Source: an uncultured Methylococcaceae bacterium | Lineage (GTDB): Bacteria > Pseudomonadota > Gammaproteobacteria > Methylococcales > Methylomonadaceae | NCBI GenBank assembly: GCA_903866825.1 | Contig: CAIPPE010000255.1 | Location: 1 to 55,684, forward strand | Reading direction: 5' to 3' | Length of the DNA: 55,684 nt | In this document: positions 27,559-43,565 of the stretch, one piece after another | Layout of the letters: the number at the start of each line of letters is the position of its first letter | Position numbering within the stretch: position 1 is the stretch's first letter | Translations under genes and position numbers: made by a program | The notes under the pieces: generated by a model | What the model saw: only the letters and a program-made list of their open reading frames with translations | Database searches by the model: none | Told to the model about the DNA's origin: nothing

Positions 27559-28359
27559 ATGAATAAAATTTTGCAAGCTATCATTTCTATTTTCAAGAAA
27601 TCTTATGATTCACTTCCCGAACAAGTCTCAGCGAAAACGCCTATAGCCCCCTCCCCTACTAAGCCAAATATAAATAATGAAACGCAGATTAAGGCTCCCG
27701 TCGTAGAAGAACCCAAGGTTAAAGAATTAGTAGAAACTGAAGCAAAAGCAGAGCCTGTTATAGAAGCAGTAGTAAAAGCTCCAACCATCCAGGCATCAAA
27801 AATCACCTCAGACAACCTTCCGCAAGATTCAATACAAAGACGCCACGCACTTTCTCAATTGCACAATATTATTGAAACCATTAAAGGTCCACGTCCTTCA
27901 GACTCTATTCAAAATCGGCATTACGACGCATTGATTAAAAGCATCATTACGCAAGCGTTAACTGATAAATCAGCTCTTGAAAATTTATATAAAAACTATG
28001 GAAGCATTCCTAAGACTATCCTCCAAGTTATTATAAAACCTACTACTCAAGTTCAAGAAACCATAGTGCAAGCGGAAGAGTCACCTGTAACAGAAGTTAC
28101 TTCTGTCAACACACAGACTGAACCTGTAATTTCTATACCTCCTACTGATTCAATTTTACGTCGTCATTACGATAGCTTGATTAATAATCAAGGTCAGACT
28201 GGAGAAGCACCTGTAGCACAAGAATCTCTAGTACAAGAAACTATAACCCATACAGAGATTGAACCCATTTTATCAGCAGTACCTACAGACTCGATTTTAC
28301 GTCGTCATTACGATACATTGATAAATAATGAACTTAACCGACTTTTAGAAGAACAATAA
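27559..28359 (+). CDS. Unknown protein with four DSIxxRHY repeats
   Basis: 266 residues, no recognised family. It starts with a short helix (MNKILQAIISIFKKSYDSLP) and then alternates low-complexity Pro/Glu/Val/Thr linkers with four copies of one motif: DSIQRRHALSQL (about 90), DSIQNRHYDALI (115), DSILRRHYDSLI (197) and DSILRRHYDTLI (244). Copies three and four are nearly identical, including the preceding PTD, which points to recent internal duplication. Charged linkers and short helical motifs suggest an extended cytoplasmic scaffold or anchor with repeated docking peptides; this is inference. A hairpin follows the stop. ATG 27559 is weakly supported by upstream sequence. Confidence 0.7.
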   Translation: MNKILQAIISIFKKSYDSLPEQVSAKTPIAPSPTKPNINNETQIKAPVVEEPKVKELVETEAKAEPVIEAVVKAPTIQASKITSDNLPQDSIQRRHALSQLHNIIETIKGPRPSDSIQNRHYDALIKSIITQALTDKSALENLYKNYGSIPKTILQVIIKPTTQVQETIVQAEESPVTEVTSVNTQTEPVISIPPTDSILRRHYDSLINNQGQTGEAPVAQESLVQETITHTEIEPILSAVPTDSILRRHYDTLINNELNRLLEEQ

Positions 28360-28654: not shown

Positions 28655-29257
28655 TTATTTTTTAGCGATGGTCTGCCACGCGACTAACCATGTTTGACTC
28701 AGATAAGAATCTGCTTTTTTACCTAAAGCACCATTCAATATGGAAGATAAGGTATGAGTAATCACACCAAAAAAATAAGCATTAATCAATTGGGGATCAA
28801 TATCACGTATTTCACCATTTCGAATACCAGACTGAATAATTTTAAAAATCTTTACAAAAGCTGCCGTATCTAAAACCGGCTTTTGCTCTGGCAAAAACTC
28901 ATTCAGCTTTAGAAAAAATAAAAAACGGATTACATCCGGCGCTTCATCCGCCAACCTAAAAAGCAAGTCCGTTATCCCCCTTAATTGCTCAGAAGACTTT
29001 TGATTTTTGCGTCTGATTTCATCGATTGAAATACTTAAACTATCAAATATACTGACATATAACTCCGCCGCCATCATCTGTTTATCTTTAAAATGATGAT
29101 AAATAAAGCTAGTATTTTGTAAGCCCAACTGTTCGGCAATATCAATTAGCGATGTTTTAAAATAGCCTTTGCTTGTAAATAACTTTAAAGCGACCAATAA
29201 AATCTCGTCTTTTGTTACTGCTCTCACGTATATACTTTCTTCTCTTTCCTGATCCAT
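28655..29257 (-). CDS. TetR-family transcriptional regulator
   Basis: About 200 residues. The N-terminal helix-turn-helix domain reads TKDEILLVALKLFTSKGYFKTSLIDIAEQLGLQ and NTSFIYHHFKDKQMMAAEL, the classic TetR pattern; the C-terminal ligand-binding half is divergent. I chose ATG 29257; the frame also extends to TTG 29281 (eight more residues) and neither start has a clear ribosome-binding site. The 61-residue gene follows closely. Its ligand and targets cannot be told from sequence; no operator palindrome was obvious in the 165 bp upstream. Confidence 0.85.
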   Translation of the reverse strand: MDQEREESIYVRAVTKDEILLVALKLFTSKGYFKTSLIDIAEQLGLQNTSFIYHHFKDKQMMAAELYVSIFDSLSISIDEIRRKNQKSSEQLRGITDLLFRLADEAPDVIRFLFFLKLNEFLPEQKPVLDTAAFVKIFKIIQSGIRNGEIRDIDPQLINAYFFGVITHTLSSILNGALGKKADSYLSQTWLVAWQTIAKK

Positions 29258-29422
29258 TTGTGTTATGCCGCAGCGTTTCAATACACTGTATCTATAAGTG
29301 TTAAAAAAATGGCTTACTCAAAATTTGCTCAACTACCCAGGAAACCCTTCTGTTAAATCGACTCAAATTAGAAACCATAAAGTTCGAAGTTGTTTTTATA
29401 ACAACACCGCTAGCTAATCTAT

Positions 29423-29986
29423 TTATTGTTCCTTAATAACCACAAAAGCAGCATTTAAGTAACTCATCATTGACCATAAAGTCAGCACAGAAGCCACATA
29501 TAACAGAACATAACCCATCATATTTATAGGCAAACCAAATAAGTCCTCACGGTATAACAAAAAACCAATAGCCAACATTTGTGCACTTGTTTTCCATTTG
29601 CCTAATTGAGAAACTTTCACCTTGGCACGCTGACCAATTTCAGCCATCCATTCTCTCAAAGAAGCAATCGTAATCTCACGACCAATAATAACCGCTGCAG
29701 GAATTGCTAAATAAACTGACCCCTGCTGTTGAACAATTAAAACGAGCACGATCGCCACCATAAGCTTATCAGCGACTGGGTCTAAAAAAGCACCAAAAGG
29801 CGTTTCCAATTTTAACCTTCTAGCTAAGTAACCATCTAACCAGTCCGTCACACCGGCCATAAAAAAGATCAAAGTGCAAACAACATTAGAATACTGCCAA
29901 GGTAAATAAAAAACCACGGCTAATAAAGGAATTAACGCGATTCTTAGCAATGTAAGGTTTGTAGGTATATTAAATTGAATCGCCAT
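29423..29986 (-). CDS. pgsA: CDP-diacylglycerol-glycerol-3-phosphate 3-phosphatidyltransferase
   Basis: Makes phosphatidylglycerol phosphate, the committed step to anionic phospholipids, in the inner membrane. The 187 residues carry the CDP-alcohol phosphatidyltransferase motif DxxDGxxARx8GxxxDxxxD as DWLDGYLARRLKLETPFGAFLDPVADK, written here in parts: DWLDGYLARR, then PFGAFLDPVADK. Several membrane helices follow. ATG 29986 lies 17 bases inside the end of uvrC, a gene pair (uvrC-pgsA) that is common in gammaproteobacteria. Confidence 0.96.
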   Translation of the reverse strand: MAIQFNIPTNLTLLRIALIPLLAVVFYLPWQYSNVVCTLIFFMAGVTDWLDGYLARRLKLETPFGAFLDPVADKLMVAIVLVLIVQQQGSVYLAIPAAVIIGREITIASLREWMAEIGQRAKVKVSQLGKWKTSAQMLAIGFLLYREDLFGLPINMMGYVLLYVASVLTLWSMMSYLNAAFVVIKEQ

Positions 29987-31817
29987 CTTGATGATGAAAT
30001 AGTTCGTATATTCGCTCTGCCAACTGCCGACTTATGCCGTCAATGCTACAAAGTGCATCCACGCCTGCGCATTTAATGCCTTGCAGCCCCCCAAACTGTT
30101 TTAATAATAACTGCCGTCGCTTAGACCCTAATCCAGGAATATTTTCCAATACAGATTGCTTTGAGGACTTACCACGACGTGCTCTATGTCCTGTAATTGC
30201 AAACCGGTGAGCTTCATCACGTATTTGCTGAATCAACAACAATCCACTGGAACTCGGCACAATATCCAAAGGCTGCTCCTGATCAACTAAAATCAGTTTT
30301 TCCATGCCCGGCTTTCTATCGGGTCCCTTTGAAACGCCGACTATCATAACATTGTTTATCTCTAATTCAGCTAATGCCTTTTGCGCTTCATGTACCTGAC
30401 CTTTGCCCCCGTCAATAAACAATATGTCTGGAGCGATATGTTCACCTTGTTTGAGTCGCTTAAAGCGCCGATATACGGCCTGATAAATCGCCGCATAATC
30501 ATCTCCGCCGGTAATATCAGTAATATTAAAACGCCGATACGCTGATTTTACGGCTCCTTCTCTATCAAAAACCACGCAGGACGCCACCGTTTGATCACCT
30601 TGCGTATGACTAATATCAAAACATTCCAATCGCTTAGGCACCTCTACACAGCCCAAATCCTCTTGTAAACTTAAGAACCGCGCATAAACACCCTGCTTAT
30701 CAGCTAATTTACTTAGCAATGAGTTTTGGGCATTAGTCATAGCCATTTGTAGCCATTTTAAACGCTCACCTCTTACATTAGCAGAAATAAGTACAGAATG
30801 TTTTGCTTCACTGGTTAAGACTTCAACTAACAAGGCTGTTTCTTCCAAATCATGACTGACAATCAATTCATAAGGAATCGGCTTATCAAGGTAATATTGA
30901 GGAATAAATGCCTGTATAATTAACGCTGGATCTTGCTCACTGTTAATCCCCGGGAAAAAAACTTTATTCCCTAAATGCTGGCCATTACGAATAAAGAATA
31001 CTTGTACACAAGCTACATTACCTTTACTGGCGCAGGCAATAATATCAACATCACCCTTTTCGCCCGAAACAAAATACTTTTCCAGCACAGATCGCAATTT
31101 TGAAATTTGATCTCTATAACCCGCCGCTTCTTCAAATTTAAGCTTGGCTGAAGACTGCTCCATCTTAACAATTAACTGTTCAATCAACAAACTGCCTTTT
31201 CCCTCTAGAAACATCACAGTGCTCTCAACATCCAAGGCATAACTGGATTTATCAATAAAACCCACACAGGGTGCAGTACACCTTTCGATTTGATACTGCA
31301 AACAAGGCCTGCTGCGATTACTATAAATAGCATCATCACACTGACGAACCGGAAATAAACGCTGCAATAATTTTAAACTTTCCCTAACTGCGCCAGAGCT
31401 AGGATAAGGTCCGAAATAGCGGCCCTTTTTACGTTTCGCTCCACGATGATAAGTGATTTGAGGAAAATCATGATCATTAGACAAAAACACATAAGGAAAT
31501 GAACGATCGTCTCGTAAACAGATATTATAACGGGGCTTATGCAACTTGATTTGCTGACATTCAAGTAATAATGCCTCGCCTTCGGTGTGCGTCACAGTTA
31601 CTTCAATAGCGGTCACTTTAGAAACCATCACTTGCTGCTTTATTGAAGCAGTTTGACTTTTAAAATAGCTGGAAACACGATTTTTAAGATTTTTTGCTTT
31701 ACCAATATAGATAATTTCGCCCTTTTCGCTCAGCATTTTATAAATACCAGGGCGCGAGGTTAAATTCTTTAAAAAAGACGCTATATTAAAATCATTAACA
31801 GATTCTTCAAGAACCAC
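29970..31817 (-). CDS. uvrC: Excinuclease ABC subunit C
   Basis: Nuclease subunit of nucleotide excision repair; makes both incisions with UvrB at bulky lesions. The 615 residues contain the GIY-YIG nuclease (GIYKMLSEKGEIIYIGKAKN), the Cys-containing segment PCLQYQIERCTAPCVGFI, the UVR motif (SSAKLKFEEAAGYRDQISKL), the RNase H-like C-terminal nuclease (ECFDISHTQGDQTVASCVVF, DILFIDGGKGQV) and terminal helix-hairpin-helix repeats. The frame starts at GTG 31817; no ATG fits better. pgsA overlaps its end. Confidence 0.97.
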   Translation of the reverse strand: MVLEESVNDFNIASFLKNLTSRPGIYKMLSEKGEIIYIGKAKNLKNRVSSYFKSQTASIKQQVMVSKVTAIEVTVTHTEGEALLLECQQIKLHKPRYNICLRDDRSFPYVFLSNDHDFPQITYHRGAKRKKGRYFGPYPSSGAVRESLKLLQRLFPVRQCDDAIYSNRSRPCLQYQIERCTAPCVGFIDKSSYALDVESTVMFLEGKGSLLIEQLIVKMEQSSAKLKFEEAAGYRDQISKLRSVLEKYFVSGEKGDVDIIACASKGNVACVQVFFIRNGQHLGNKVFFPGINSEQDPALIIQAFIPQYYLDKPIPYELIVSHDLEETALLVEVLTSEAKHSVLISANVRGERLKWLQMAMTNAQNSLLSKLADKQGVYARFLSLQEDLGCVEVPKRLECFDISHTQGDQTVASCVVFDREGAVKSAYRRFNITDITGGDDYAAIYQAVYRRFKRLKQGEHIAPDILFIDGGKGQVHEAQKALAELEINNVMIVGVSKGPDRKPGMEKLILVDQEQPLDIVPSSSGLLLIQQIRDEAHRFAITGHRARRGKSSKQSVLENIPGLGSKRRQLLLKQFGGLQGIKCAGVDALCSIDGISRQLAERIYELFHHQDGDSI

Positions 31818-31945
31818 AATTCATACCAAATAAAATCCAAATTGGACCAACATATCATATTAATTTCATTTGACAAGTTTGACATTTTTAAACTATCCTT
31901 AAATCAAGTTTAATATTTGTAATTTTTTTAATTTTTCCTCTTTTT

Positions 31946-32308
31946 ATGGTATTTCCCATGACTTTCTTACACAAATCGTACCTCAAAACCTGCTTAGCCA
32001 TTACTATTGCTGCTTTTTGTTTTTCTGCACACGCTGAAGTTGATGTCGATGCCGCTAAAGCTTTAGCCAAAGAAAACGGTTGTTTTAGATGCCATGGCAC
32101 TGATAAAGACAAGGATGGTCCAGCCTGGAATAAAGTTGCTGCGAAATACAAAGGGGACGCAAAAGCCCAAGAAAAACTCCTGCAACACCTTTCTTCTGGA
32201 AGAAACGTCAAATTTGCTGACGGACATGAAGAAGCACACACTATCCTAAAGGCCGAAGATCCTAAGGCTGCTGCCAATCTGGCTGATTTTATTCTTTCTT
32301 TAAAATAG
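31946..32308 (+). CDS. Small periplasmic class I cytochrome c
   Basis: 120-residue precursor with a Sec signal peptide (hydrophobic core CLAITIAAFCFSAHA, cleavage after AHA) and one haem site CFRCH near residue 47. GPAWNKVAAKY after the haem and the helix NLADFILSLK at the C-terminus are typical of cytochrome c5/c551-type electron shuttles; the Met ligand of such proteins is not obvious in the expected region, where KFADGHEEAH stands instead, so His ligation is possible. Start ATG 31946; ATG 31958 would also keep the signal peptide. It lies 117 bp ahead of the decahaem cytochrome, with an imperfect hairpin between (32319-32363), and may act as periplasmic carrier for that conduit. Confidence 0.85.
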   Translation: MVFPMTFLHKSYLKTCLAITIAAFCFSAHAEVDVDAAKALAKENGCFRCHGTDKDKDGPAWNKVAAKYKGDAKAQEKLLQHLSSGRNVKFADGHEEAHTILKAEDPKAAANLADFILSLK

Positions 32309-32425
32309 CTAAAACATTGTGGTGAGTGAATACCAAGGGACCTCCTTGTTTTCGCATCACCACTAAATTTAGATTAGCTGCGTGAAAACGATGTAGCTCT
32401 TAAACCTTGCAGGAACTTTAAACTA

Positions 32426-33382
32426 ATGAACACATTAATTAAAATCATCATGCTGTGCGGGCTCCTCGTTGGATCCTCCTATGCTGCAAATAACCCGACG
32501 ACCACCACTAAATCACCTGCTCAAGCATTGGACAGGGATTCAGTGTGTACTACTTGCCACGATGAGAATGAAGCCAAACCCATTCTCTCAATTTATCAAA
32601 CTGCGCACGGCAACAAAGCCGATTCACGGACACCCTCTTGCCAATCATGTCATGGTCAAAGCGAGAAACATCTGAGCAGTAAAAGTTCTGCACCAGATGT
32701 TATTTTTGGTGCAAAAACGACAGGTGCATTTTCACCCAACGCAGCCAAAGAACAAAATGCAAGCTGCTTGTCTTGTCACGAAAAAGATCCTACCCGGACC
32801 CATTGGCAAGGCGGCGCTCATCAGGCGGCAGATCTAGCCTGTACTTCATGCCATGTAGTTCATAATGCACATGACAAAGTACGAGAAAAACAAACTCAAA
32901 GAGACGTATGCTTTACCTGTCATAAGGATCAAAAAGCACAGTCTAACAAGTTTTCACATCACCCAATTCCTGAAGGCAAAATCGCTTGCTCCGATTGCCA
33001 TAACCCACATGGCTCTGCAGGCCCCAAATTACTGGTCAAAAGCACTGTGACTGAAACCTGCTACACCTGTCATGCAGAAAAACGCGGCCCTTTCCTCTGG
33101 GAGCATCAGCCAGTCACTGAAGATTGTACTAACTGCCACACCCCTCATGGATCGAACATTACACCTTTATTGAAATCACGGGCCCCCTTCATCTGTGAAG
33201 AGTGCCACGATGGTCCACATAACAGTAAAACCCCGACTGCTGAAAATGCAGCAGGCATACAAGGAGGACTAACAGGCTCTCCTGCAAACCCAAGTACTAG
33301 CTATACCGGTCGTGCTTGTATGAATTGCCACAGCATGGTGCATGGATCAAATGATCCAGCTGGCGCCTTATTGCAACGCTAA
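32426..33382 (+). CDS. mtrA: Decahaem c-type cytochrome, MtrA/DmsE/PioA type
   Basis: 318-residue precursor with a signal peptide cleaved after about residue 20 (GSSYA) and exactly ten CxxCH sites at about residues 41, 72, 114, 139, 162, 188, 212, 234, 257 and 298. Length, spacing and repeated CHxxH-type segments (CHVVH, CHNPH, CHTPH) match MtrA/PioA/DmsE proteins, which insert in an outer-membrane MtrB barrel and wire electrons across the outer membrane. mtrB follows after 18 bases. No MtrC-like surface cytochrome is next to it, so the direction of flow (reduction of external acceptors, or oxidation of external donors as in PioAB/MtoAB) is not fixed by sequence. Confidence 0.94.
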   Translation: MNTLIKIIMLCGLLVGSSYAANNPTTTTKSPAQALDRDSVCTTCHDENEAKPILSIYQTAHGNKADSRTPSCQSCHGQSEKHLSSKSSAPDVIFGAKTTGAFSPNAAKEQNASCLSCHEKDPTRTHWQGGAHQAADLACTSCHVVHNAHDKVREKQTQRDVCFTCHKDQKAQSNKFSHHPIPEGKIACSDCHNPHGSAGPKLLVKSTVTETCYTCHAEKRGPFLWEHQPVTEDCTNCHTPHGSNITPLLKSRAPFICEECHDGPHNSKTPTAENAAGIQGGLTGSPANPSTSYTGRACMNCHSMVHGSNDPAGALLQR

Positions 33383-33400
33383 CCCACAACGGAGACAATC

Positions 33401-35740
33401 ATGAAAATTCGTAATGACGAAATGAAGGTCAGCATCATGGCTCTAGCGATACGCTGTGCATTGTTGGCAACTACCACACTCCCGTTTGGAGCTTATGCAT
33501 TAGCCGATGAAGCAACGGATGAACTTACAAAACCTTCAAATACGGTTAATTTTGGTGCTTTATATGCAGACCAATCCTCTGCCAGGTTTGGTCAATATAA
33601 CGGATTAAATAACCAAGGTGCCTATGGTTTGGGCGGTTTTGATATACGCGGGGGCAACGGCTACGATCAAAATAGCGGTAGCGGACTCCGCTGGAAATTA
33701 GGCGGCTCTAACCTTGGAACAACATCTAGAGAGCTCGATGGCTCTGCCAGCGATCAAGGTAAATGGAAAATCAATCTTGGCTATGATGAACTGCAACACA
33801 ACATCACTAATAGCTATATAACACCATTACAGGGTAATCCCGGTGATAATAACTTTACCCTGCCGTCAAACTTTGGCTCCATCAATACGGCGAGCGGTCA
33901 ACCAGGGACCAGAAGCCTAACACCTGCCCAGTCCTCTGACTTTCAGGGTGTAAATGAATCGGTCAATCGCAAAACAGGTTCGTTTGGCTCAACTTATACA
34001 TTCAGCCCACAATTAAGTGCACAAATTGATTATAAGCACTTAGATCAATCTGGTGCAAAGCTAATTGGTACAGGATCACAGGGTGGAATAAACTTAGTAG
34101 GTGGCTCTACAGGCAAAGCCGAAGCTAACATGCTGATTTTAAACCCTACCAGCTATCAAACCGACAATGTTAACGCAGCCTTGAGTTGGAGAGGTGATAA
34201 AGGAAATTTGACTGGCGGATATTATGGCTCAATATTTCATGATGATTATAATAGCCTAAGCTGGCAAAGTCCTATGACCTCTGCAGCCAGTAAATGTATA
34301 GGAGTTAATTGTTATTCCAATAACACTATGAGCACTGCGCCAAGCAATAGCTTGCATCAGGCGAATCTCACCGGTGGCTATAATTTTGGCTATGACACCA
34401 AAATAGCGGGAGGGTTTTCTTATGGTTACAACCAGCAGAACTCCAGTTTCGCACCCACCTTGATTCCTCAAGCTAGTGGAGTTGCTTACAATATGATGCA
34501 AGCCAATGGCCTACCTACTTCATCACTTAACGGTGTTGTAGAAACCAAACACGGTGATGTCAAACTAACCAACCAGAGCATTAAAGATTTGACATTGACT
34601 GCAGGCTATAAAATCAATGAGCGCGACAACCGCACCGATTCAAATGCGTATAAATACATGACTATCTCTGTTGAGCCTTATACAGGGGTTAATACTCCTT
34701 ATAGCAATCGTAAGATGCAATATGAAGCAACAGCTGCTTATCGTTTAACCAAATCCCAAAATATAAACTTTGGCTACGAACATGAAAGCATAAAACGTTG
34801 GTGTAACGGAGTATTAGGTGGTGCTCAATGTGTGTCGAGTCCGGCCAGTAACGAAGATAAAATGAATCTGACCTATCGGTTAAAAGCACTCGACAGCGTT
34901 AACTTTAATGCTGGCTATACCTATGCAAACCGCCGCGCTGAGAATGATCCTAATTTCCTCGCAAATGCAGGTAATTATGCTTCAACCACGGCTGTTTCAA
35001 GTTCAGCCCTAAATGCTGGTAATTTCCTTGGCTACATTGCCTATCCTTATGCTAACCGTGACCAAAACTTAGGTAAAGCTGGAGTCACTTGGCAAATCAC
35101 CCAAAAACTGGATTTAGGTGTCAATGGTCGTTATACTTATGACACTTACGATGCAAAACTGGGTGTACAAAATGGTCAGGCAGCAGGGGTGAATGTTGAT
35201 GCGACTTATAACTATGCAGAAAACAGCAATGTGTCTGCCTATTGGAATTGGCAAAATGGACAAAGAAACTTGCGGAGCGCGGCAAGTGGTAATGGTGCAT
35301 CACAAATAGTAGCGCCTACCAATATTTGGAGTAACCGACTCAATGACGTAAGTAATACCGTAGGTATATTGACTCGCCGTAATGGCTTGTTAAACGGGAA
35401 GATAGATCTGATTGGCGATTTATCTTATTCATTGGATACTACCAGCTATTCAACACAAGTGCCTTATAGCTCAACTTGTGGACTGTCAACGACACTTACT
35501 TGCGGTGCTTTATCGCCCATTAAGAATGAAATGTGGAGTTTAAAGTTAACCAGTAATTACCAACTCTACAAAAACGGTAAATTATCTTTAACTTATATGT
35601 ATCAAAAGTTAAACAGCAATGATTACTTTTATAACTCCCAAATGGTTGGCTATACCCCAAACTCTTTAATGCCAACCAACTTACAAATGCAAAATTATGC
35701 GGTTAATGTGATTGGCCTAACATACAACCACAGTTTCTAA
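33401..35740 (+). CDS. mtrB: MtrB/PioB-family outer-membrane beta-barrel
   Basis: 779-residue outer-membrane barrel that sheathes the decahaem cytochrome. A signal peptide (core ALAIRCALLATTTLPFG, cleavage near AYALA) is followed by many amphipathic strands with alternating aromatic and polar residues (KINLGYDEL, YKHLDQSGAKL, NFNAGYTYANRRAEND, SLKLTSNYQLYKNGKLSLTYMYQKL) and a C-terminal strand ending VIGLTYNHSF with terminal Phe, as in barrel proteins. The N-terminal CxxC seen in Shewanella MtrB is absent, as in PioB-like proteins. GGAG precedes ATG 33401. A terminator follows, so mtrA and mtrB form a unit. Confidence 0.92.
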   Translation: MKIRNDEMKVSIMALAIRCALLATTTLPFGAYALADEATDELTKPSNTVNFGALYADQSSARFGQYNGLNNQGAYGLGGFDIRGGNGYDQNSGSGLRWKLGGSNLGTTSRELDGSASDQGKWKINLGYDELQHNITNSYITPLQGNPGDNNFTLPSNFGSINTASGQPGTRSLTPAQSSDFQGVNESVNRKTGSFGSTYTFSPQLSAQIDYKHLDQSGAKLIGTGSQGGINLVGGSTGKAEANMLILNPTSYQTDNVNAALSWRGDKGNLTGGYYGSIFHDDYNSLSWQSPMTSAASKCIGVNCYSNNTMSTAPSNSLHQANLTGGYNFGYDTKIAGGFSYGYNQQNSSFAPTLIPQASGVAYNMMQANGLPTSSLNGVVETKHGDVKLTNQSIKDLTLTAGYKINERDNRTDSNAYKYMTISVEPYTGVNTPYSNRKMQYEATAAYRLTKSQNINFGYEHESIKRWCNGVLGGAQCVSSPASNEDKMNLTYRLKALDSVNFNAGYTYANRRAENDPNFLANAGNYASTTAVSSSALNAGNFLGYIAYPYANRDQNLGKAGVTWQITQKLDLGVNGRYTYDTYDAKLGVQNGQAAGVNVDATYNYAENSNVSAYWNWQNGQRNLRSAASGNGASQIVAPTNIWSNRLNDVSNTVGILTRRNGLLNGKIDLIGDLSYSLDTTSYSTQVPYSSTCGLSTTLTCGALSPIKNEMWSLKLTSNYQLYKNGKLSLTYMYQKLNSNDYFYNSQMVGYTPNSLMPTNLQMQNYAVNVIGLTYNHSF

Positions 35741-35786
35741 CGAGCATTTTAATTAAAGAAAACAGTGTAACCCTGTTAGAGAACTC

Positions 35787-35831
35787 AGCCCAATAAATGC
35801 AGACTCATTGATTTGCTTTATTGGGCTTTTA
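35787..35831 (+). terminator. Intrinsic terminator after mtrB
   Basis: AGCCCAATAAA (35787-35797) pairs perfectly with TTTATTGGGCT (35817-35827), followed by TTTT. The remaining 35832-36056 is AT-rich with no gene and presumably holds the promoter of the next gene; no clear boxes seen. Confidence 0.85.
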
Positions 35832-36056
35832 TAAGCTATACCCAGTTAGACTAAGCCTTCGTACCAACCCGTTTATCTACAAGAAAGCCCATTTTACCTA
35901 ATTAACTGGAGAAACTATTTTCATAAGGACAACTGAAAATATATACCCCACTCTAATATTTTAACACTCATATAGTAATTATTAACTTTTTTTCAAACCA
36001 AACTTTATTCAAGATAACTTAACGAGATTAAATCTCATAACCCTGAGAGTAAAAAA

Positions 36057-36842
36057 ATGATTAATCTAAGAGATGATTTAACTTTAGGTCACCTGTCTGT
36101 GACAAACAGGGTTTTGTTTTCTGGCTTCTTGTTCGTTATTGGTATAGGCCTACTCATGTCAGGACTCCAAATATTGCTGACCCATGGCATGGCGGATGGT
36201 GAACCCGGCCTTTCGAAAAAAGATATTGTTTATAGCTTTTATGGAAATCGCTCAGGCTCTAAATTAGAGACCGCGCTTAACGGAAAGATGAAAAGCAAAG
36301 CCCCACCCGAAGTTAACGAGATGCTGATTCGATGGGCCCATGATGGAGCACCTAAAGCGGAATGGGATAGTAAAATTAGTGCCGCTGTTGAAAAACATTG
36401 TTATAAATGCCATGATGAAGAATCCGACTTACCCCAATTAACTAAATATGATGTCGCGAAAGGCTTGGCTGAAGTTGATCAAGGTGCAAGTATCAGCTCA
36501 CTCACACGCGTCTCACATATCCACTTATTTGGTATCAGCTTTATATTTCTATATGTTGGATGGATTTTCAGCATGGCAGTATTTAACCCTTTCTGGAAAC
36601 TGATTTTAATATCATCACCCTTCGCCTTCTTGGTGATAGATGTTAGTTCATGGTGGATCACAAAATTCTGGCCTGACTTTGCAATTATTACCATGCTAAG
36701 CGGTATCGGCTATAGCATTGCGGTCATGATTATGTTTGTCACCTCTTTTGCCCAAATGTGGTTACCAAAATGGACCAAACCATCGCAATCTAACATTTAT
36801 GCAATCGTAAGAGAAAACTACAACAGAAAAAAAAGTGCTTAA
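36057..36842 (+). CDS. Membrane monohaem cytochrome, paralog A of a three-member family
   Basis: 261 residues. Predicted layout: helix 1 (about 18-42), a periplasmic domain of about 110 residues with one haem site CYKCH (115-119), then three helices (about 155-175, 182-200, 207-230). Strongly conserved with the two paralogs here: LTHGMADGxPGLS, DIVYSxYGNRSGSKLE, RVSHIHLFGISFIF (His 153 and 156 at the start of helix 2), DVxSWWxTKFWP and AQMWLP. The paired His in the membrane helix could bind a haem or interact with quinone; that is inference. Such proteins are sometimes mislabelled elongation factor-1 alpha in databases; nothing here supports that. Located after mtrAB, it is a candidate inner-membrane partner of the outer-membrane conduit. 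Confidence 0.8.
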   Translation: MINLRDDLTLGHLSVTNRVLFSGFLFVIGIGLLMSGLQILLTHGMADGEPGLSKKDIVYSFYGNRSGSKLETALNGKMKSKAPPEVNEMLIRWAHDGAPKAEWDSKISAAVEKHCYKCHDEESDLPQLTKYDVAKGLAEVDQGASISSLTRVSHIHLFGISFIFLYVGWIFSMAVFNPFWKLILISSPFAFLVIDVSSWWITKFWPDFAIITMLSGIGYSIAVMIMFVTSFAQMWLPKWTKPSQSNIYAIVRENYNRKKSA

Positions 36843-37043
36843 TTCCCTTTAAATCCTTTCAGTCATTGGCACTTGGCATCAACCGGACCTGTTCATTGAT
36901 GCCAAATAACACCCTCCTAGCAAAATTAGAAACAAATTCCTTAGTACTTGTCGTAGAATAAACACCTTCGTTAACTGTAGCTTCATTAATTAAGCGACTC
37001 TTCAGTTACCTCAACTTTTAACTCTAACTTTAGGAACAGAAAG

Positions 37044-37769
37044 ATGACTGAAATTTTACATAAGCTAACATTGGGTAAGCTTCCTTTAACCTACCGATTT
37101 TTGTTCACCAGTTTTTTATTGGTAGTTGGCCTGGGTTTGTGTATGGCAGGCGCTCAAATCATGCTCACACATGGGATGGCTGATGGTAAACCCGGATTAT
37201 CCATGGATGATATTGTGTATAGCTATTACGGCAATCGTTCTGGCTCTAAACTGGAATCAGCGCTTACCGGCAAAATGAAAGATAAAGCCCCAGCATCTGT
37301 TAACATTACCCTAATAAAATGGGTACGGGATGATGCGCCAGAAGCCGAATGGGCAAAAGTTGGTCCTTTATTTGAACAACACTGTTCAAAGTGCCACGAT
37401 GCTGAATCAGGATTACCCGAAGTAACTAAATTAGAAGTTGCAAAAAGCCTCGCTGAAGTGGATCACGGTGAAAGTATTAGCTCTTTAACCCGGGTTTCAC
37501 ACATTCATTTATTTGGAATTAGTTTTATTTTCTTATTTGTTGGATTAATTTTTGCGATGGCAGAATTTAACCCTTTTTGGAAGATCGTACTTATAACAAC
37601 GCCTTTTGCTTTTTTAGTCCTGGACGTTGCCTCTTGGTGGCTAACCAAATTCTGGCCCGAATGCGCCTGGTTTACGATGATAGGTGGTTTAGGATATAGT
37701 CTGGCTGCCTTAATTATGTTTGGTGCTTCTTTTGCTCAAATGTGGCTACCTCGCTGGACCCAAAAATAA
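37044..37769 (+). CDS. Membrane monohaem cytochrome, paralog B
   Basis: 241 residues and clearly a duplicate of the preceding gene: same order of helix 1, periplasmic domain with haem site CSKCH (114-118), then three helices, and near-identical blocks (LTHGMADGKPGLS, YYGNRSGSKLESAL, TRVSHIHLFGISFIF, ASWWLTKFWP, FAQMWLPRW). It lacks the 20-residue basic tail of paralog A. A 200-bp gap with a hairpin (36873-36882 with 36896-36905) separates the two, so B may have its own promoter. TTAGGAACAG before ATG 37044 gives a ribosome-binding site. Same proposed role as paralog A. Confidence 0.8.
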   Translation: MTEILHKLTLGKLPLTYRFLFTSFLLVVGLGLCMAGAQIMLTHGMADGKPGLSMDDIVYSYYGNRSGSKLESALTGKMKDKAPASVNITLIKWVRDDAPEAEWAKVGPLFEQHCSKCHDAESGLPEVTKLEVAKSLAEVDHGESISSLTRVSHIHLFGISFIFLFVGLIFAMAEFNPFWKIVLITTPFAFLVLDVASWWLTKFWPECAWFTMIGGLGYSLAALIMFGASFAQMWLPRWTQK

Positions 37770-37796
37770 CCCCGCCCTGTTTTCCCAATATTGACT

Positions 37797-37819
37797 GTGG
37801 GGCGAAATAATCGCCCCAC
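37797..37819. terminator. Bidirectional terminator between convergent cytochrome operons
   Basis: GTGGGGCGA (37797-37805) pairs perfectly with TCGCCCCAC (37811-37819) around AATAA. It lies between the convergent ends of paralogs B and C. Confidence 0.8.
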
Positions 37820-37852
37820 TATTAAACATACCCTCGGCCAACTCAACTTTAA

Positions 37853-38599
37853 TTAGATTGACGCTATATGAACAGGCTGCCTGGAATAAAACCACATCTG
37901 GTAAATACTCATTAAAATCTGAAAGCCCATAGATAGCCCCATTAAGGCCCCGCTATAAACCACGACATAAGCAAATGAGGGTGTTGATTTGGTAATAAAC
38001 CAGGAAATAACATCCAGTAACATTGCAAAAAACGGAATAACCACGGTAACTCTTTTTACATTTGCATCAATATCACAGAGCAGAAAGATTTTGCCTATAA
38101 AAAACAGGATAAAGGCAATCCCAAATAAATGGATATGGGAAACGCGCACCAGCGTGGGTAAGGTTGCTCCTCCCGGATGCGCCACTTGTGACACGGTTTC
38201 ATAATGCGTTAAATCCGGCAAAGACGGGTTAACACTTGGCGTATGACATAAAATACAATCCCGATTCAGAATCGGTGCAATCTCGTCATTATAGCCAGCT
38301 TCATCGGCACCATTATGTATCCATCGCAAAATTACGTCTTTATCACCGATATAACGCAGATTATTTTTCATAATGCCGTTAATTGCATTACCTAAACGGG
38401 TCTGGTTACTATTGCCATGGTAACTGATCACCACATCTTCTACCGAGAGTCCCGCTTTGCCATCCAGGCCTTGATGAGTAAAGTACATATTCGTCAATGC
38501 CATCAAATAGCCCAGACCGATTGTTAAGAGAAATACGGTATTTAAAATTCTCTCACTGACAGAAATATCTTTAAAACGGATATAGTGTTTCTCGTACAT
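37853..38599 (-). CDS. Membrane monohaem cytochrome, paralog C
   Basis: 248 residues, a more distant member of the same family as paralogs A and B. Kept features are GLSVEDVVISYHGN, the haem site CILCH (115-119), RVSHIHLFGIAFILFFIGKIF (here cited in part: SHIH at 154-157), DVISWFITK and QMWF. THGMADG is changed to THQGLDG and the GSKLE block is lost. AAAGGAG lies 7 bases before ATG 38599. It starts only 10 bases after the Cyc2-like gene on the same strand, so the two are certainly cotranscribed. This pairing mirrors the mtrAB-paralog A/B arrangement and suggests it serves that second outer-membrane protein. Confidence 0.8.
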   Translation of the reverse strand: MYEKHYIRFKDISVSERILNTVFLLTIGLGYLMALTNMYFTHQGLDGKAGLSVEDVVISYHGNSNQTRLGNAINGIMKNNLRYIGDKDVILRWIHNGADEAGYNDEIAPILNRDCILCHTPSVNPSLPDLTHYETVSQVAHPGGATLPTLVRVSHIHLFGIAFILFFIGKIFLLCDIDANVKRVTVVIPFFAMLLDVISWFITKSTPSFAYVVVYSGALMGLSMGFQILMSIYQMWFYSRQPVHIASI

Positions 38600-38609
38600 A
38601 ATTGCTCCT

Positions 38610-39980
38610 TTAGAACGCTAACCAGCCATTTAGCATGAAGGTGTTGTTATTTTGTGCATCCGTATTGGAGCCATTAAACTGAGAATAACCAATATACTGT
38701 AAGCTGGTACGCAAGTTCATCAGATAATGATAGGTATCCGATTTACCAAAAGGCACATACACAAGCTCTGCCGTAAAGTATTGACTGTTCGGCCTTGACA
38801 GATAATATCCGGCGTCGGGCGAATAAAGATTCGCATCCTGTGAACCCGTTACCCGATTATAGCCAAAGGTAACACCATAGGTTTGATCGTAGGTATAAGC
38901 GGCATTAATTTTATACGTTGTTAAATAGGTGTTGCCACTGGCAGCAAGCCCCCCGGCCAAACGGGTCGCCGTTAATTTCTGATCTTCGTAAATGTACGTC
39001 GTTTTAGCTTCAAAAATATGCTTGGGATTACCCATATACTGGTAGGTCGCATCAACAGCTAAATCCGAATAATGATCCGTACCGTTGCTGCGGTCCCGCC
39101 CCGGAAAGACATCCGCAATCATGCCATAATGACCCAATGAAACATAATGCCCTTGCCAGTCTTTTTGTAAGGCAGCCCGCCAATAAGGCGCTGCACCATC
39201 AATTTGTTGCTGACCCGCATCCGCAACGCCCAAACCTTTTTGCACCTTGTAATTCAATGAAGAATAACCACCAGCCTCAAGGTATAACAGATTATTAATC
39301 ATGGTATAGGCTGTCGCCCCACCCACCTGGGTAGAAAAAGCACCGTCAATTAAAGAGGAGGCTCCTATACCGGGTTGTACAGCACTCCCAGTATAAGGAA
39401 AGCTCCATGCTGAGGTGGTGTTCCACAAATCCTGTACCGTCGGATTGTTGTTCAGAGAAATACCATAGGTTACAGGGATATCGGTATCTAACTGATCTGC
39501 AAAGCGGATATCGGTATTATCTAGAGCCAGTCTATCCGAATAGCCATCATAGGTAAGCTGGCTAAAAGCCCCCACTTTTCCATAAATACGACCAGCATAA
39601 AACAAAGACGCCTGATCAAAGGTAAAGTTATTGTTCTGGTTATAACCCGAAGCAAAACCTGTAGCATCCTGATCTTTTTGGGTATGCGTTAACGAGCCTT
39701 GGACCATCCCGCTCAAGGCGGGTACTTTAGCCTCAATCCCTTTGCCTCCGCTCATGGTATAACCGCCTAATTTAAACTCACGACCAAAAGGGGTTAAATT
39801 AGGACCAAATGATTGGGTATGGCAAACATTACAATTTTGGCCTGTCTGCCGGGAAAAACTGGGCACTGCATTGGTTGGCGAACTCATCAATAGCAGAACA
39901 GTTGCCAATACCAGTAGGCATGCCTGAAAAACAGTGGGGGTTGTCGTTCGTTTGATAGTAGCTTGCATAAATTTTCTCAT
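38610..39980 (-). CDS. Fused monohaem cytochrome-outer membrane barrel, Cyc2-like
   Basis: About 456 residues. After a signal peptide (core ACLLVLATVLLLMSSPTNA) comes a short haem domain: PSFSRQTGQNCNVCHTQSF with CNVCH near residue 50, then PFGREFKLGGYTM. The rest is a beta-barrel rich in Gly, Tyr, Thr and Asn ending in a strand NTFMLNGWLAF with terminal Phe. N-terminal haem plus barrel and the RQTG..C..CH...FGR.FK..GYT pattern resemble Cyc2, the outer-membrane iron oxidase of Fe(II)-oxidising bacteria, and a broader set of uncharacterised fused cytochrome-porins. It is probably an electron gate in the outer membrane; substrate unknown. I chose ATG 39980; ATG 39968 is equally good (GAGAA upstream) and TTG 39983 is possible. 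Paralog C follows after 10 bases. Confidence 0.82.
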   Translation of the reverse strand: MRKFMQATIKRTTTPTVFQACLLVLATVLLLMSSPTNAVPSFSRQTGQNCNVCHTQSFGPNLTPFGREFKLGGYTMSGGKGIEAKVPALSGMVQGSLTHTQKDQDATGFASGYNQNNNFTFDQASLFYAGRIYGKVGAFSQLTYDGYSDRLALDNTDIRFADQLDTDIPVTYGISLNNNPTVQDLWNTTSAWSFPYTGSAVQPGIGASSLIDGAFSTQVGGATAYTMINNLLYLEAGGYSSLNYKVQKGLGVADAGQQQIDGAAPYWRAALQKDWQGHYVSLGHYGMIADVFPGRDRSNGTDHYSDLAVDATYQYMGNPKHIFEAKTTYIYEDQKLTATRLAGGLAASGNTYLTTYKINAAYTYDQTYGVTFGYNRVTGSQDANLYSPDAGYYLSRPNSQYFTAELVYVPFGKSDTYHYLMNLRTSLQYIGYSQFNGSNTDAQNNNTFMLNGWLAF

Positions 39981-40451
39981 CAATAAAGTCAGTAGCTAGT
40001 TAATATTTTCTTGTATTTAAAATATACAGAGGACAATCTGAATAGAGACTGAATAAACACCCAAGGATGAACTGATAAACCCTGAGATTCGAGCGAATTG
40101 CACCAAATTAATGCAAATAGCGCACTATAATCTGGCGTTTTAATTTTTTATTGATCGTAACCTTTAATTAAGCAATTAAAAAACATCAGCTTTTACTTAA
40201 TGGCTTATAATTTGCTTACAACACGCCAAATTCATTTTTATTTAAGAAGCAAGCTTAGTTGTACTTAACGTATCTTAGCTAAATTAGTAATTTAACAATC
40301 ACTGTTAGTTAGTTTGTTTTCTAAAGTACTTTCGAAAACTCTTTTGCCTTGCTCATGCTAGCTTGGAATATAATAGAAATATAATAAGTACACGCTATCA
40401 CTAAAAATCAAAGTGGTATGCCTAATGTTTACACTATAAATAGAAGACAAT
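39981..40451. other. Divergent intergenic region, Cyc2-like gene / glgX
   Basis: About 470 bp of AT-rich DNA with no gene seen. Several TATAAT words are present (near 40130, 40205 and 40369-40374) but none has a well-placed, convincing -35. It must contain both divergent promoters. Confidence 0.45.
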
Positions 40452-42566
40452 ATGCAGCAAGAGTACCATTTAAAGCATGGAAAGCCTTACCCATCAGGCT
40501 CTAAATATAGCCCAAAAGGTGTAAATTTCTCCATTTTCAGTCGCCATGCTGAATACGTAGAGCTTTTACTTTTCTCAAGTGCTGAGAGCGACGAACCTTT
40601 TCAAATCATTCCGCTAAATAAAGACATCAATAGAACTTTTTTCTCTTGGCATGTCTATGTTTCCAAGCTGCCCGAAGGTACTTGGTATGCGTGGCGCATG
40701 GATGGGCCGGGCCAGGCGCGCGATTCCAGCTTTCGCTTCGAAAAAGATAAAAATCTGCTTGATCCTTGGGCCTATGCAGTCAGCGATAAACGCTGGAACC
40801 GTAAAGCCGCTTGTAAACCTGGCGACAATACCCGAACCGCAATGCGCTGCATGGTAACTGATGATCGTTATGATTGGGAAAGCGATACGCCGTTAGCCAT
40901 TAGAAGTGAAAAAGCCATCGTTTATGAACTTCATGTAGGCGGATTTACTCGTCATAAATCATCAAAAGTTGCAAATCCTGGCACCTTTTCAGGCCTCATT
41001 GAAAAAATACCTTATCTTCAAAAACTAGGCATTAGCCATGTGGAATTATTACCCATTATGGCTTTTGATGAGCAAGATGTGCCACTAAAAACAGCTGACT
41101 TAGGCTTAAAAAATTACTGGGGGTACAGCACTCACAGCTTCTTTAGCCCTCACCCTGGCTATTGTGTAACGCCTGAACAAGGCACTCATGTCCAGGAGTT
41201 TAGAGATTTAGTCAAAGCGCTGCATAAAGCCGGAATCGGTGTCATTATGGATGTGGTGTTTAACCATACTGCAGAAGCAGGTGCGGATGGTCCGGTCATT
41301 AATTTTAGGGGTATTGGCGGCAAATCCTTTTATCATGTCGACAAAATAGACAAAAGCATCTTACGAGACTACACCGGCTGTGGAAATACAGTTAATGCTA
41401 ACCACCCATTGGTTGCACGTTTCATTATTAGCTGCCTTGAATACTGGGTCAGGGAAATGCATGTTGATGGTTTCCGCTTCGACCTTGCCAGCGCGATGGC
41501 ACGCGGAGAAAATGGGGAAGTGTTACAGGATCCACCGGTATTATGGGGGATCGAACTTTCAGAACAACTCATAAAAACCAAACTGATTGCCGAAGCCTGG
41601 GATGCTGCCGGCCTGTATCAGGTAGGAAGCTTTCCTGGTTACCGTTGGGCTGAGTGGAATGGTAGATACCGTGACATCATCCGTCAGTTTGTGCGTGGCG
41701 ACAAAGGTATTTTATCAGAACTCGCAACCCGAATCAGTGGCAGTAGTGATCTTTACCAATATCAAGGCAGGCTACCAATAAATAGTATTAACTTTGTAAC
41801 CTGTCACGACGGCTTTACCTTATATGATTTGTTTAGCTACAACCACAAGCATAATGAAGCTAACGGGGAAGATAACAGAGATGGCTGTAGCAATAATATA
41901 AGCTATAACTGTGGGGTTGAGGGTGATACAACAGATAAAAGTATTTTAGCGTTACGAAAACAACAGGCAAAAAATGTGTTTTCTATTTTACTGATCAGCC
42001 AGGGCGTCCCCATGTTACTGGCCGGTGACGAGTTATTACACAGTCAACAGGGTAATAATAATTGTTACTGCCAGGATAATGAATTAAGCTGGTTAGACTG
42101 GTCTTTAACAGAAAAAAATGCTGACACACTTCGCTTTGTGCAGCAAATGATTGCGCTTCGCAAGAGACATCCCTCTATTATGCGTCGTCGTTTTTTAACA
42201 GGCCAATCCATTGACGGAAAAAACGTAAGCGATGTTTCCTGGCATGGTGTTGAACTTAATAAACCCTTATGGTTTGATCCAGAGGCAAGCCTATTATCCT
42301 ATACGCTTGCAGGCATAGAAGAAAGTGAAGCTAACCTGCATATTATTCTTAACATGTCAGATCAGGCTACTGCTGTGGAACTTCCTCAACTTGAGGGTAA
42401 AAAGTGGTGTGTTGCAGTCGATACTTCAAAACCATCACCTAATGATATTATTCTTCCTGAACAACAAAAAACCTATGAAGAAACTCACTATAAGATCAAT
42501 AATAAATCTGTGGTCATATTAGAAAGTGTCAACACCAAGTCTCACAAATTATTAGGCTTGTTTTAA
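40452..42566 (+). CDS. glgX: Glycogen debranching enzyme GlgX (isoamylase type)
   Basis: Hydrolyses alpha-1,6 branches of glycogen limit dextrins. 704 residues: an N-terminal carbohydrate-binding (CBM48-like) domain (about 10-160; GSKYSPKGVNFSIFSRHAEYVELLLF), then the GH13 barrel with DVVFNHTAE, DGFRFDLAS (nucleophile Asp), IAEAWDAAGLY (acid/base Glu) and INFVTCHDGFTLYDL (third Asp), and a C-terminal beta domain. AGAAG lies 8 bases before ATG 40452. The downstream mutarotase-like gene starts 42 bases later, so the pair may be an operon of glycogen breakdown. Confidence 0.95.
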   Translation: MQQEYHLKHGKPYPSGSKYSPKGVNFSIFSRHAEYVELLLFSSAESDEPFQIIPLNKDINRTFFSWHVYVSKLPEGTWYAWRMDGPGQARDSSFRFEKDKNLLDPWAYAVSDKRWNRKAACKPGDNTRTAMRCMVTDDRYDWESDTPLAIRSEKAIVYELHVGGFTRHKSSKVANPGTFSGLIEKIPYLQKLGISHVELLPIMAFDEQDVPLKTADLGLKNYWGYSTHSFFSPHPGYCVTPEQGTHVQEFRDLVKALHKAGIGVIMDVVFNHTAEAGADGPVINFRGIGGKSFYHVDKIDKSILRDYTGCGNTVNANHPLVARFIISCLEYWVREMHVDGFRFDLASAMARGENGEVLQDPPVLWGIELSEQLIKTKLIAEAWDAAGLYQVGSFPGYRWAEWNGRYRDIIRQFVRGDKGILSELATRISGSSDLYQYQGRLPINSINFVTCHDGFTLYDLFSYNHKHNEANGEDNRDGCSNNISYNCGVEGDTTDKSILALRKQQAKNVFSILLISQGVPMLLAGDELLHSQQGNNNCYCQDNELSWLDWSLTEKNADTLRFVQQMIALRKRHPSIMRRRFLTGQSIDGKNVSDVSWHGVELNKPLWFDPEASLLSYTLAGIEESEANLHIILNMSDQATAVELPQLEGKKWCVAVDTSKPSPNDIILPEQQKTYEETHYKINNKSVVILESVNTKSHKLLGLF

Positions 42567-42608
42567 CAATCTCAGAATTTTATTAAGCTGTGAAAAGCGC
42601 TTTTAATT

Positions 42609-43565
42609 ATGTTTCTTGATTATCATGAAACAGGTGAAGAGAGAAATAATTTGGACATTAACCTACTGAATAGTCAATATGGACTGACAGACCACTTGAC
42701 TTTCATCGAAGGCAAAGGTGAATTTCCATTTATTTCTGTTCAAAATAAAAGCGCCACTGCTGTTATTTCGTTATATGCTGCGCAAGTACTCTCATTTAAA
42801 CCGGTATCTGAAACTGAAGATCTATTATTTTTGAGTAAAAAAACCTTCTATGAAGATGGCCGGGCTATGCGAGGCGGAATTCCTATTTGCTGGCCATGGT
42901 TCGGCCCTAACCAGTCGGGCATTGATTTACCAGACCATGGCTTTGTACGAAATAGCTTGTGGACTGTCGTCAAAACAACTGCGGTTTCCGAAAAAGAAAC
43001 CCTTATTAAATTACGCTTCAAATATAATCCACACCGGACAGACCATTGGCCAGAAACATTTATATTAGAACTTGATATTTCTGTAGGTGAGTCATTAACC
43101 CTCAATTTATCAACGCACAATATAGGTCGTAAAGCGCTCTATATTACCCAAGCATTGCATGCCTATTTTTATATTGGCGATATCCACAAAATCTCTATTT
43201 TGGGTTTAGAGAAAACCGATTATCTAGACAAATTAGATAATGGTCAGCAAAAATACCAATCTCACGCTGTCACAATCCCATTTGAAGTTGATCGAATCTA
43301 CAAAGATGTCAAAAGAGAATTAACTATTACGGATCCGGTGTTTAATCGGGATATTTTATTAACGTCTAATCATTACAAAACTGCTATCGTCTGGAATCCC
43401 TGGCGATATGTCTCGGCTCATATAGCTGACTTAGAACCAGATGACTATAAACGTTTTGTTTGCCTCGAAGCAGGTAACGTAACTACTGATATCCTTGAGA
43501 TTCAGCCTGATAATTCAGTCACGTTAAGTGTTAACTACAAAATAATCTCTAAATCGTATCAATAA
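42609..43565 (+). CDS. D-hexose-6-phosphate mutarotase (YeaD/aldose 1-epimerase family)
   Basis: 318 residues of the galactose mutarotase fold. Characteristic segments are FISVQNKSATAVISLYAAQVLSF, AMRGGIPICWPWFGPN (the RGGIPICWPWFG signature of YeaD proteins), DHGFVRNSLW, ITQALHAYFYIGDI (catalytic His) and FVCLEAGNV (catalytic Glu). The family interconverts the alpha and beta anomers of glucose 6-phosphate-type sugars. Position after glgX fits a role at the exit of glycogen breakdown. The first 30 residues are family-divergent, and the start at ATG 42609 has only a weak ribosome-binding site. Confidence 0.9.
   Translation: MFLDYHETGEERNNLDINLLNSQYGLTDHLTFIEGKGEFPFISVQNKSATAVISLYAAQVLSFKPVSETEDLLFLSKKTFYEDGRAMRGGIPICWPWFGPNQSGIDLPDHGFVRNSLWTVVKTTAVSEKETLIKLRFKYNPHRTDHWPETFILELDISVGESLTLNLSTHNIGRKALYITQALHAYFYIGDIHKISILGLEKTDYLDKLDNGQQKYQSHAVTIPFEVDRIYKDVKRELTITDPVFNRDILLTSNHYKTAIVWNPWRYVSAHIADLEPDDYKRFVCLEAGNVTTDILEIQPDNSVTLSVNYKIISKSYQ

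Follow-up and report, generated by a model that had tools for sequence, protein, structure and literature searches.

Which inner-membrane protein exchanges electrons with two different kinds of outer-membrane conduit? The question is raised by positions 31946-39980 of a 55,684-nucleotide stretch of DNA (the window; contig CAIPPE010000255.1 of assembly GCA_903866825.1, from an uncultured Methylococcaceae bacterium), where an mtr gene set on the plus strand converges on the gene for a fused cytochrome-porin on the minus strand, and both are accompanied by members of one family of membrane monohaem cytochromes, here called M. The host genome (4.28 Mb, 98.9% complete) is that of a Methylococcales methanotroph, and the best matches of the M proteins lie in metagenome-assembled genomes of Methylococcales and in Methylobacter. 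We hold the chances to be evenly balanced that this is a double trans-envelope electron-transfer locus, in which the M proteins would serve as inner-membrane electron-exchange modules for both kinds of conduit. The genes are the following.

31946-32308, plus strand: class I monohaem cytochrome c of 120 aa, periplasmic, opening the mtr cluster (PF00034, E 2.5e-8)
32426-33382, plus strand: MtrA/DmsE-family decahaem cytochrome (10 CxxCH; TIGR03508, 292.6 bits against a cut-off of 192.2)
33401-35740, plus strand: MtrB/PioB-family outer-membrane beta-barrel (PF11854, 427 bits; TIGR03509, 450.6 bits against a cut-off of 240)
36057-36842, plus strand: M1, a four-helix membrane monohaem c-type cytochrome, an extra copy on a long branch, between mtrB and M2
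37044-37769, plus strand: M2, a paralog of M1, nearest to the copy placed immediately after mtrB in relatives
37853-38599, minus strand: M3, a third paralog, of a subfamily often found beside fused cytochrome-porins
38610-39980, minus strand: CycP, a Cyc2-like fusion of a monohaem cytochrome with a porin (a single CxxCH; 16 strands predicted)

Profile scores, haem motifs and alignment of the paralogs recovered every gene named in a first-pass annotation of this DNA, which had overlooked the cytochrome c gene at 31946-32308; its 10-base spacer between CycP and M3 is exact (38600-38609). A cytochrome c gene also lies 5' of mtrA in most related loci, and mtrB follows mtrA directly, with a gap of 18 bp. 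M2 and M3 align with M1 over their full length, at 67% and 36% identity, and each of the three contains one CxxCH and a RVSHIHLFG helix. No further multihaem gene, as would be expected for an MtrC/OmcA-type outer-surface decahaem cytochrome, lies within 29000-43000. Nor does the locus contain a NapC/NirT-type tetrahaem gene beside mtrAB, and the M proteins themselves give no match to PF03264.

The proposal that each conduit type comes with its own member of one family is borne out by the phylogeny of M. The mtr-linked copies form a single clade of 25 rows (22 mtr-linked, 2 facing CycP and 1 at a contig end) with a Shimodaira-Hasegawa-like approximate likelihood ratio test (SH-aLRT) support of 99, and the CycP-linked M3 copies form a separate clade of 39 rows (SH-aLRT 100). 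Close relatives or fragments of CycP occur at 80 loci, 53 of which have an M3-type gene less than 1 kb away, nearly always directly downstream and on the same strand. In the window's own family (f1, 227 genomes), 60 genomes hold both genes, 6 CycP only, 67 M3 only and 94 neither (Fisher p 9e-13, ignoring kinship); some of the 6 CycP-only genomes may fall outside the second sample, and one of them, G175, carries an M3 that is truncated where its contig ends (L130). Thus, with M3 present in 60 of the 66 CycP genomes and 67 M3 genomes lacking CycP, CycP implies M3 but not the reverse. The same 67 genomes led us to reject the idea that M3 is dedicated to CycP, as did G133, a member of the window's genus that has M3 at the same glgX-side locus without CycP (L202), so that CycP seems to be the part that was gained or lost. 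Outside Methylococcales, full-length CycP-like proteins were found in 17 genomes, none of them with M. Other arrangements of fused cytochrome-porins were also seen: the window genome encodes a third one, 40% identical (G000:C273:19796-21151, L150), followed on the same strand by two monohaem cytochromes of 152 and 114 aa, and in G186 two CycP genes lie inside 6 kb (L098, 3915-9401), one with M3 and the other after an M3 fragment.

On the mtr side, the 301 Methylococcales genomes yielded 52 MtrB loci, distributed over 51 of the genomes. M adjoins it at 31 of the 47 decidable loci and is absent at 16, the 5 further loci lying at contig ends or not having been fetched. The long branch of M1 within the mtr-linked clade suggests a diverged additional copy that was inserted in front of M2. 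M genes in tandem after mtrB also occur in two genomes of the window's genus (G200 and G274), and in G224 (L015) a fragment of M1 stands ahead of M2. A NapC/NirT tetrahaem protein (PF03264, 212-235 bits) is encoded beside 5 of the 16 mtrAB loci without M and beside 0 of 20 M-linked ones (Fisher p 0.012, on small numbers, with kinship ignored and the 20 M-linked loci found via M). Since, among the loci examined, NapC occurs only at mtrAB loci that lack M, its distribution fits M standing in for CymA. The first-pass annotation had placed M in the position of CymA or PioC for both kinds of conduit; as regards CymA, this agrees with the M-linked mtrAB loci. The NapC-bearing mtrAB loci often also carry an ethylbenzene-dehydrogenase-like monohaem protein. 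At four Methylococcales loci (L153, L154, L156 and L165), mtrAB is accompanied by both a NapC tetrahaem and a monohaem protein, the latter ethylbenzene-dehydrogenase-like (PF09459) in the two tested; these loci represent a different Mtr variant.

M matched no Pfam or NCBIfam model above cut-off, and a search of the PDB gave no relative, either by sequence or by fold (best fold E 0.59). The AlphaFold2 model, with a mean predicted local distance difference test score (pLDDT) of 92.8, contains long helices at residues 15-43, 146-171, 178-204 and 206-235, and a haem domain of 100 residues with the CxxCH between helices 1 and 2. The residues invariant in both M alignments (52 family members and 23 M3 proteins; M1 numbering) are C115, C118 and H119 at the haem, and H154, H156, D195, W199 and T202 on helices 2-3, towards the predicted periplasmic side. 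The latter group may form a quinone site or a second haem site, and it is these invariant membrane residues that suggest M could be a quinol-reactive protein. H43 was considered as a general distal haem ligand and rejected, as it is not conserved in some M3 proteins (L120, L141 and L109).

In the mechanism that we propose, M1, M2 and M3 would be inner-membrane proteins whose four helices bear one periplasmic c-haem domain. Their task would be to move electrons between a membrane partner, in all likelihood the quinone pool, and cytochromes of the periplasm, the position that NapC/CymA tetrahaems have in other Mtr systems. M2, with M1 as its extra copy, would be linked by the 120-aa cytochrome c to MtrA within its MtrB barrel, and thereby to an electron acceptor or donor outside the cell. 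Such a conduit could discharge electrons under oxygen shortage, in keeping with the methane-dependent current reported in PMC13322032, or could take electrons up, which is conceivable because no MtrC lies beside the locus, as in Mto and Pio. CycP would exchange electrons with a small soluble partner outside the cell (Fe(II) in characterised Cyc2), and M3 would join CycP to the inner membrane; by analogy, it is more likely that CycP takes electrons from a dissolved donor. The analysis establishes the gene content, haem motifs, predicted folds, linkage and subfamily structure, and the lack of NapC at those M-linked mtrAB loci that were examined; the quinone contact, the redox partners, the substrate and the direction of flow in this scheme are ones that we infer.

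The hairpins between the genes, which bear on the transcription units, are listed here.

32319-32363, plus strand: hairpin in the interval between the cytochrome c gene and mtrA (-22.2 kcal/mol, z -5.1)
35787-35827, plus strand: terminator-like hairpin with T-run after mtrB (11/11 complementary arms; -19.9 kcal/mol, z -4.3)
36873-36905, plus strand: hairpin in the interval between M1 and M2 (10-bp perfect stem, z -2.9)
37797-37819, no strand assigned: perfect hairpin of 9 bp where the two gene sets converge, flanked on neither side by a clear T-run (-18.2 kcal/mol, z -6.4)

The single terminator described earlier between the converging operons corresponds to the last of these, but the hairpin after mtrB is the better terminator candidate, as judged from the sequence. 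Of 20 related mtr loci, 13 have only 0-24 bp separating mtrB from M and the others have up to 296 bp, so that in most relatives the mtr operon most likely includes M. In the window, this gap is 316 bp. Together with the terminator-like hairpin after mtrB and the hairpin between M1 and M2, this makes co-transcription of M1 and M2 with mtrAB doubtful in the window genome. Upstream of the locus, a plus-strand open reading frame of 266 aa at 27559-28359 contains repeated DSI(L/Q)(R/N)RHYDxLI units.

Same-genus relatives L094 and L096 have CycP-M3 by glgX without mtrAB, M3 occupies the glgX-side locus even without CycP at L202, and the two sets were seen side by side only in the window and in G224 (L015). 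These arrangements are what is expected if M3-CycP has long adjoined glgX in the genus and its proximity to the mtr set is a coincidence, with conduits that do not work together, a reading to which we give slightly better than even credence. It has more difficulty with G183:C33 (L107, same genus), where CycP lies directly upstream of mtrA-mtrB on the same strand in a possible single operon, and with G017 (L143), where cytochrome c, M3 and CycP stand in line.

A further question is what CycP itself does. The protein has 456 aa, a signal-peptide-like N-terminus and a single CxxCH at residues 50-54. It matched no Pfam or NCBIfam model above cut-off and a sequence search of the PDB gave nothing useful, but its model is a 16-strand porin (pLDDT 72.8) whose fold matches in the PDB are led by OprP (2O4V), with OprO (4RJW) at rank 10, both porins that have been named as fold relatives of Cyc2. 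CycP thus has the architecture of Cyc2, with an N-terminal single CxxCH and a 16-strand porin in more than 365 aa. Cyc2 proteins, for which a redox potential of 208 mV is given, are defined by the motif PXFAR[QK][TY] upstream of CxxCH (PMC8406198). The window CycP has PSFSRQT in this position, with FSR in place of FAR, while exact PSFARQT is present in several near relatives (for example L092, L097 and L114). The PXL that begins four residues after CxxCH in Cyc2 has a counterpart in the PNL of CycP, which begins five after, one residue later than in Gallionella Cyc2. In the tree, the branch of CycP is well separated from the Cluster-1-type Cyc2 of Gallionella and family f47, to which its match, about 37%, is confined to the N-terminal ~140 residues. 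On these sequence features, we class CycP as Cyc2-like and not as Cyc2. It could be a haem-plug porin of another function, such as the handling of copper or of small redox molecules, with M3 supplying or removing electrons. The divergent motif, the distant branch and the short match agree with this, whereas the shared architecture and closest porin folds, and the exact motif in near relatives, point back to Cyc2; we regard such a function as a serious possibility, somewhat short of an even chance.

Several observations weigh against M proteins as conduit modules. M is present in 259 of the 301 Methylococcales genomes, at 1-8 copies each, as compared with 92 for CycP and 51 for MtrB, and it is common without adjoining mtrAB or CycP. 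As the family is near-universal and often lacks conduit neighbours, its core job may be another. The 67 f1 genomes that hold M3 without CycP were described above, and the window genome has a second CycP, 89% identical (G000:C256:24093-25448, L091), without an adjoining M. Of the M-less mtrAB loci, 11 of 16 are also without a NapC protein. The PDB search by fold gave no relative from which a quinone site could be transferred to M, and the hairpins interrupt the supposed M1/M2 operon in the window genome.

The distribution beyond Methylococcales points in the same direction. M occurs in 61 of 399 genomes sampled across the phylum, mostly in one family (f47), and in named Gallionella, Sideroxydans, Thiomicrorhabdus, Methylovorus and Hydrogenothermus loci, nearly always beside housekeeping or unrelated genes. 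Among the non-Methylococcales M loci examined, a CycP-like neighbour was found only at L054 (Nitrosomonadales) and an MtrB neighbour at none. As a general marker of electron conduits, the M family was therefore rejected, since outside two subclades it is mostly unlinked. The first-pass annotation had itself named such a lack of linkage to outer-membrane cytochromes as evidence against its proposal; this applies to the family as a whole and not to the two subclades. The fourth M paralog of the window genome (G000:C323, L085, 7301-8308) has a C-terminal extension and lies between tilS/pyrG/kdsA/eno and trpS; it is possibly the core copy. Family f47 consists of small genomes with a Cluster-1-like Cyc2 (AIPAFARQTGAACLSCH), most of which also carry an unlinked M, and its members are possibly iron oxidisers.

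Alternatively, M proteins would have a general respiratory role, as membrane-anchored proteins that relay electrons between the cytochromes of the periplasm and a terminal oxidase, with no quinone chemistry and with some copies recruited beside conduits for co-regulation. This would account for the mostly stand-alone copies beside housekeeping genes (in the window genome C323, tilS/pyrG-trpS) and for M alone at Thiomicrorhabdus, Methylovorus and Gallionella loci, and a Cyc2-type oxidase feeding a high-potential oxidase would need no quinone step, yet four helices with invariant polar membrane residues (HxH and D195) exceed the needs of an anchor and NapC-type quinol dehydrogenases occur at some M-less mtrAB loci, and we consider this reading rather unlikely. 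Returning to M as the inner-membrane partner of both conduits, a wider claim would be that it represents a new type of inner-membrane quinone-cytochrome c oxidoreductase, with a single c-haem borne by a membrane domain of four helices, unrelated to NapC/CymA or bc1, carried by nearly all gammaproteobacterial methanotrophs as well as by iron and sulfur oxidisers, and acting as a shared port for MtrAB and Cyc2-like conduits. We advance this tentatively, with the balance leaning towards doubt.

The mtr half of the locus is already known. In PMC13322032 (June 2026), a Methylobacter was enriched on a methane-fed anode with a methane-dependent current, and a cluster (02045-02048) is described that encodes a periplasmic monohaem cytochrome, a decahaem MtrA/DmsE, an MtrB/PioB porin and an inner-membrane four-transmembrane-helix monohaem cytochrome, with conserved synteny and a scattered distribution in Methylococcales. 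Judged from that description, the order and orientation of these genes are identical to those of the window mtr set, which has two such membrane cytochromes (M1 and M2) where the Methylobacter cluster has one. The available portions of that text describe no adjoining CycP-M3 pair and do not mention Cyc2; PMC12810054 (2025) lists FeGenie 'Cyc2, cluster 2' and MtrA/MtrB in Methylobacter genomes, and in the available text of neither source did we find a description of a CycP-M3 pairing or of M linked to Cyc2-like porins. A search for literature on the M family under other wording returned only PMC13322032. Thus, the locus is real and coherent and half of it has been published, so that the mtr part was not the undescribed module it was first taken for. 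What appears to be new here is that CycP and M3 form a gene pair, that both conduits share one family and that NapC is absent where mtrAB is accompanied by M.

The window mtr set resembles MtrCAB-CymA of Shewanella and MtoAB-ImoA-MtoD of Sideroxydans in having MtrA in MtrB and an inner-membrane cytochrome and, as in Mto, a periplasmic monohaem cytochrome. It differs from MtrCAB in having no MtrC beside it, and from both in its membrane partner, the four-helix monohaem M in place of a one-helix NapC/NirT tetrahaem. M and NapC/NirT/CymA (PF03264) are both membrane-anchored c-type cytochromes found beside mtrAB, but the latter have four haems and one helix whereas M has one haem and four helices, and no sequence relation between them was detected.

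The passage of electrons from the quinone pool to the outer membrane, or back, is a missing step both in low-oxygen methanotrophs and in Cyc2-type iron oxidisers, and one uncharacterised family tied to both conduit types, together with a complementation assay available in Shewanella, makes this step directly testable. If M is indeed the port, it would provide a marker for electron-conduit potential in the methane-oxidising bacteria that limit methane emissions.

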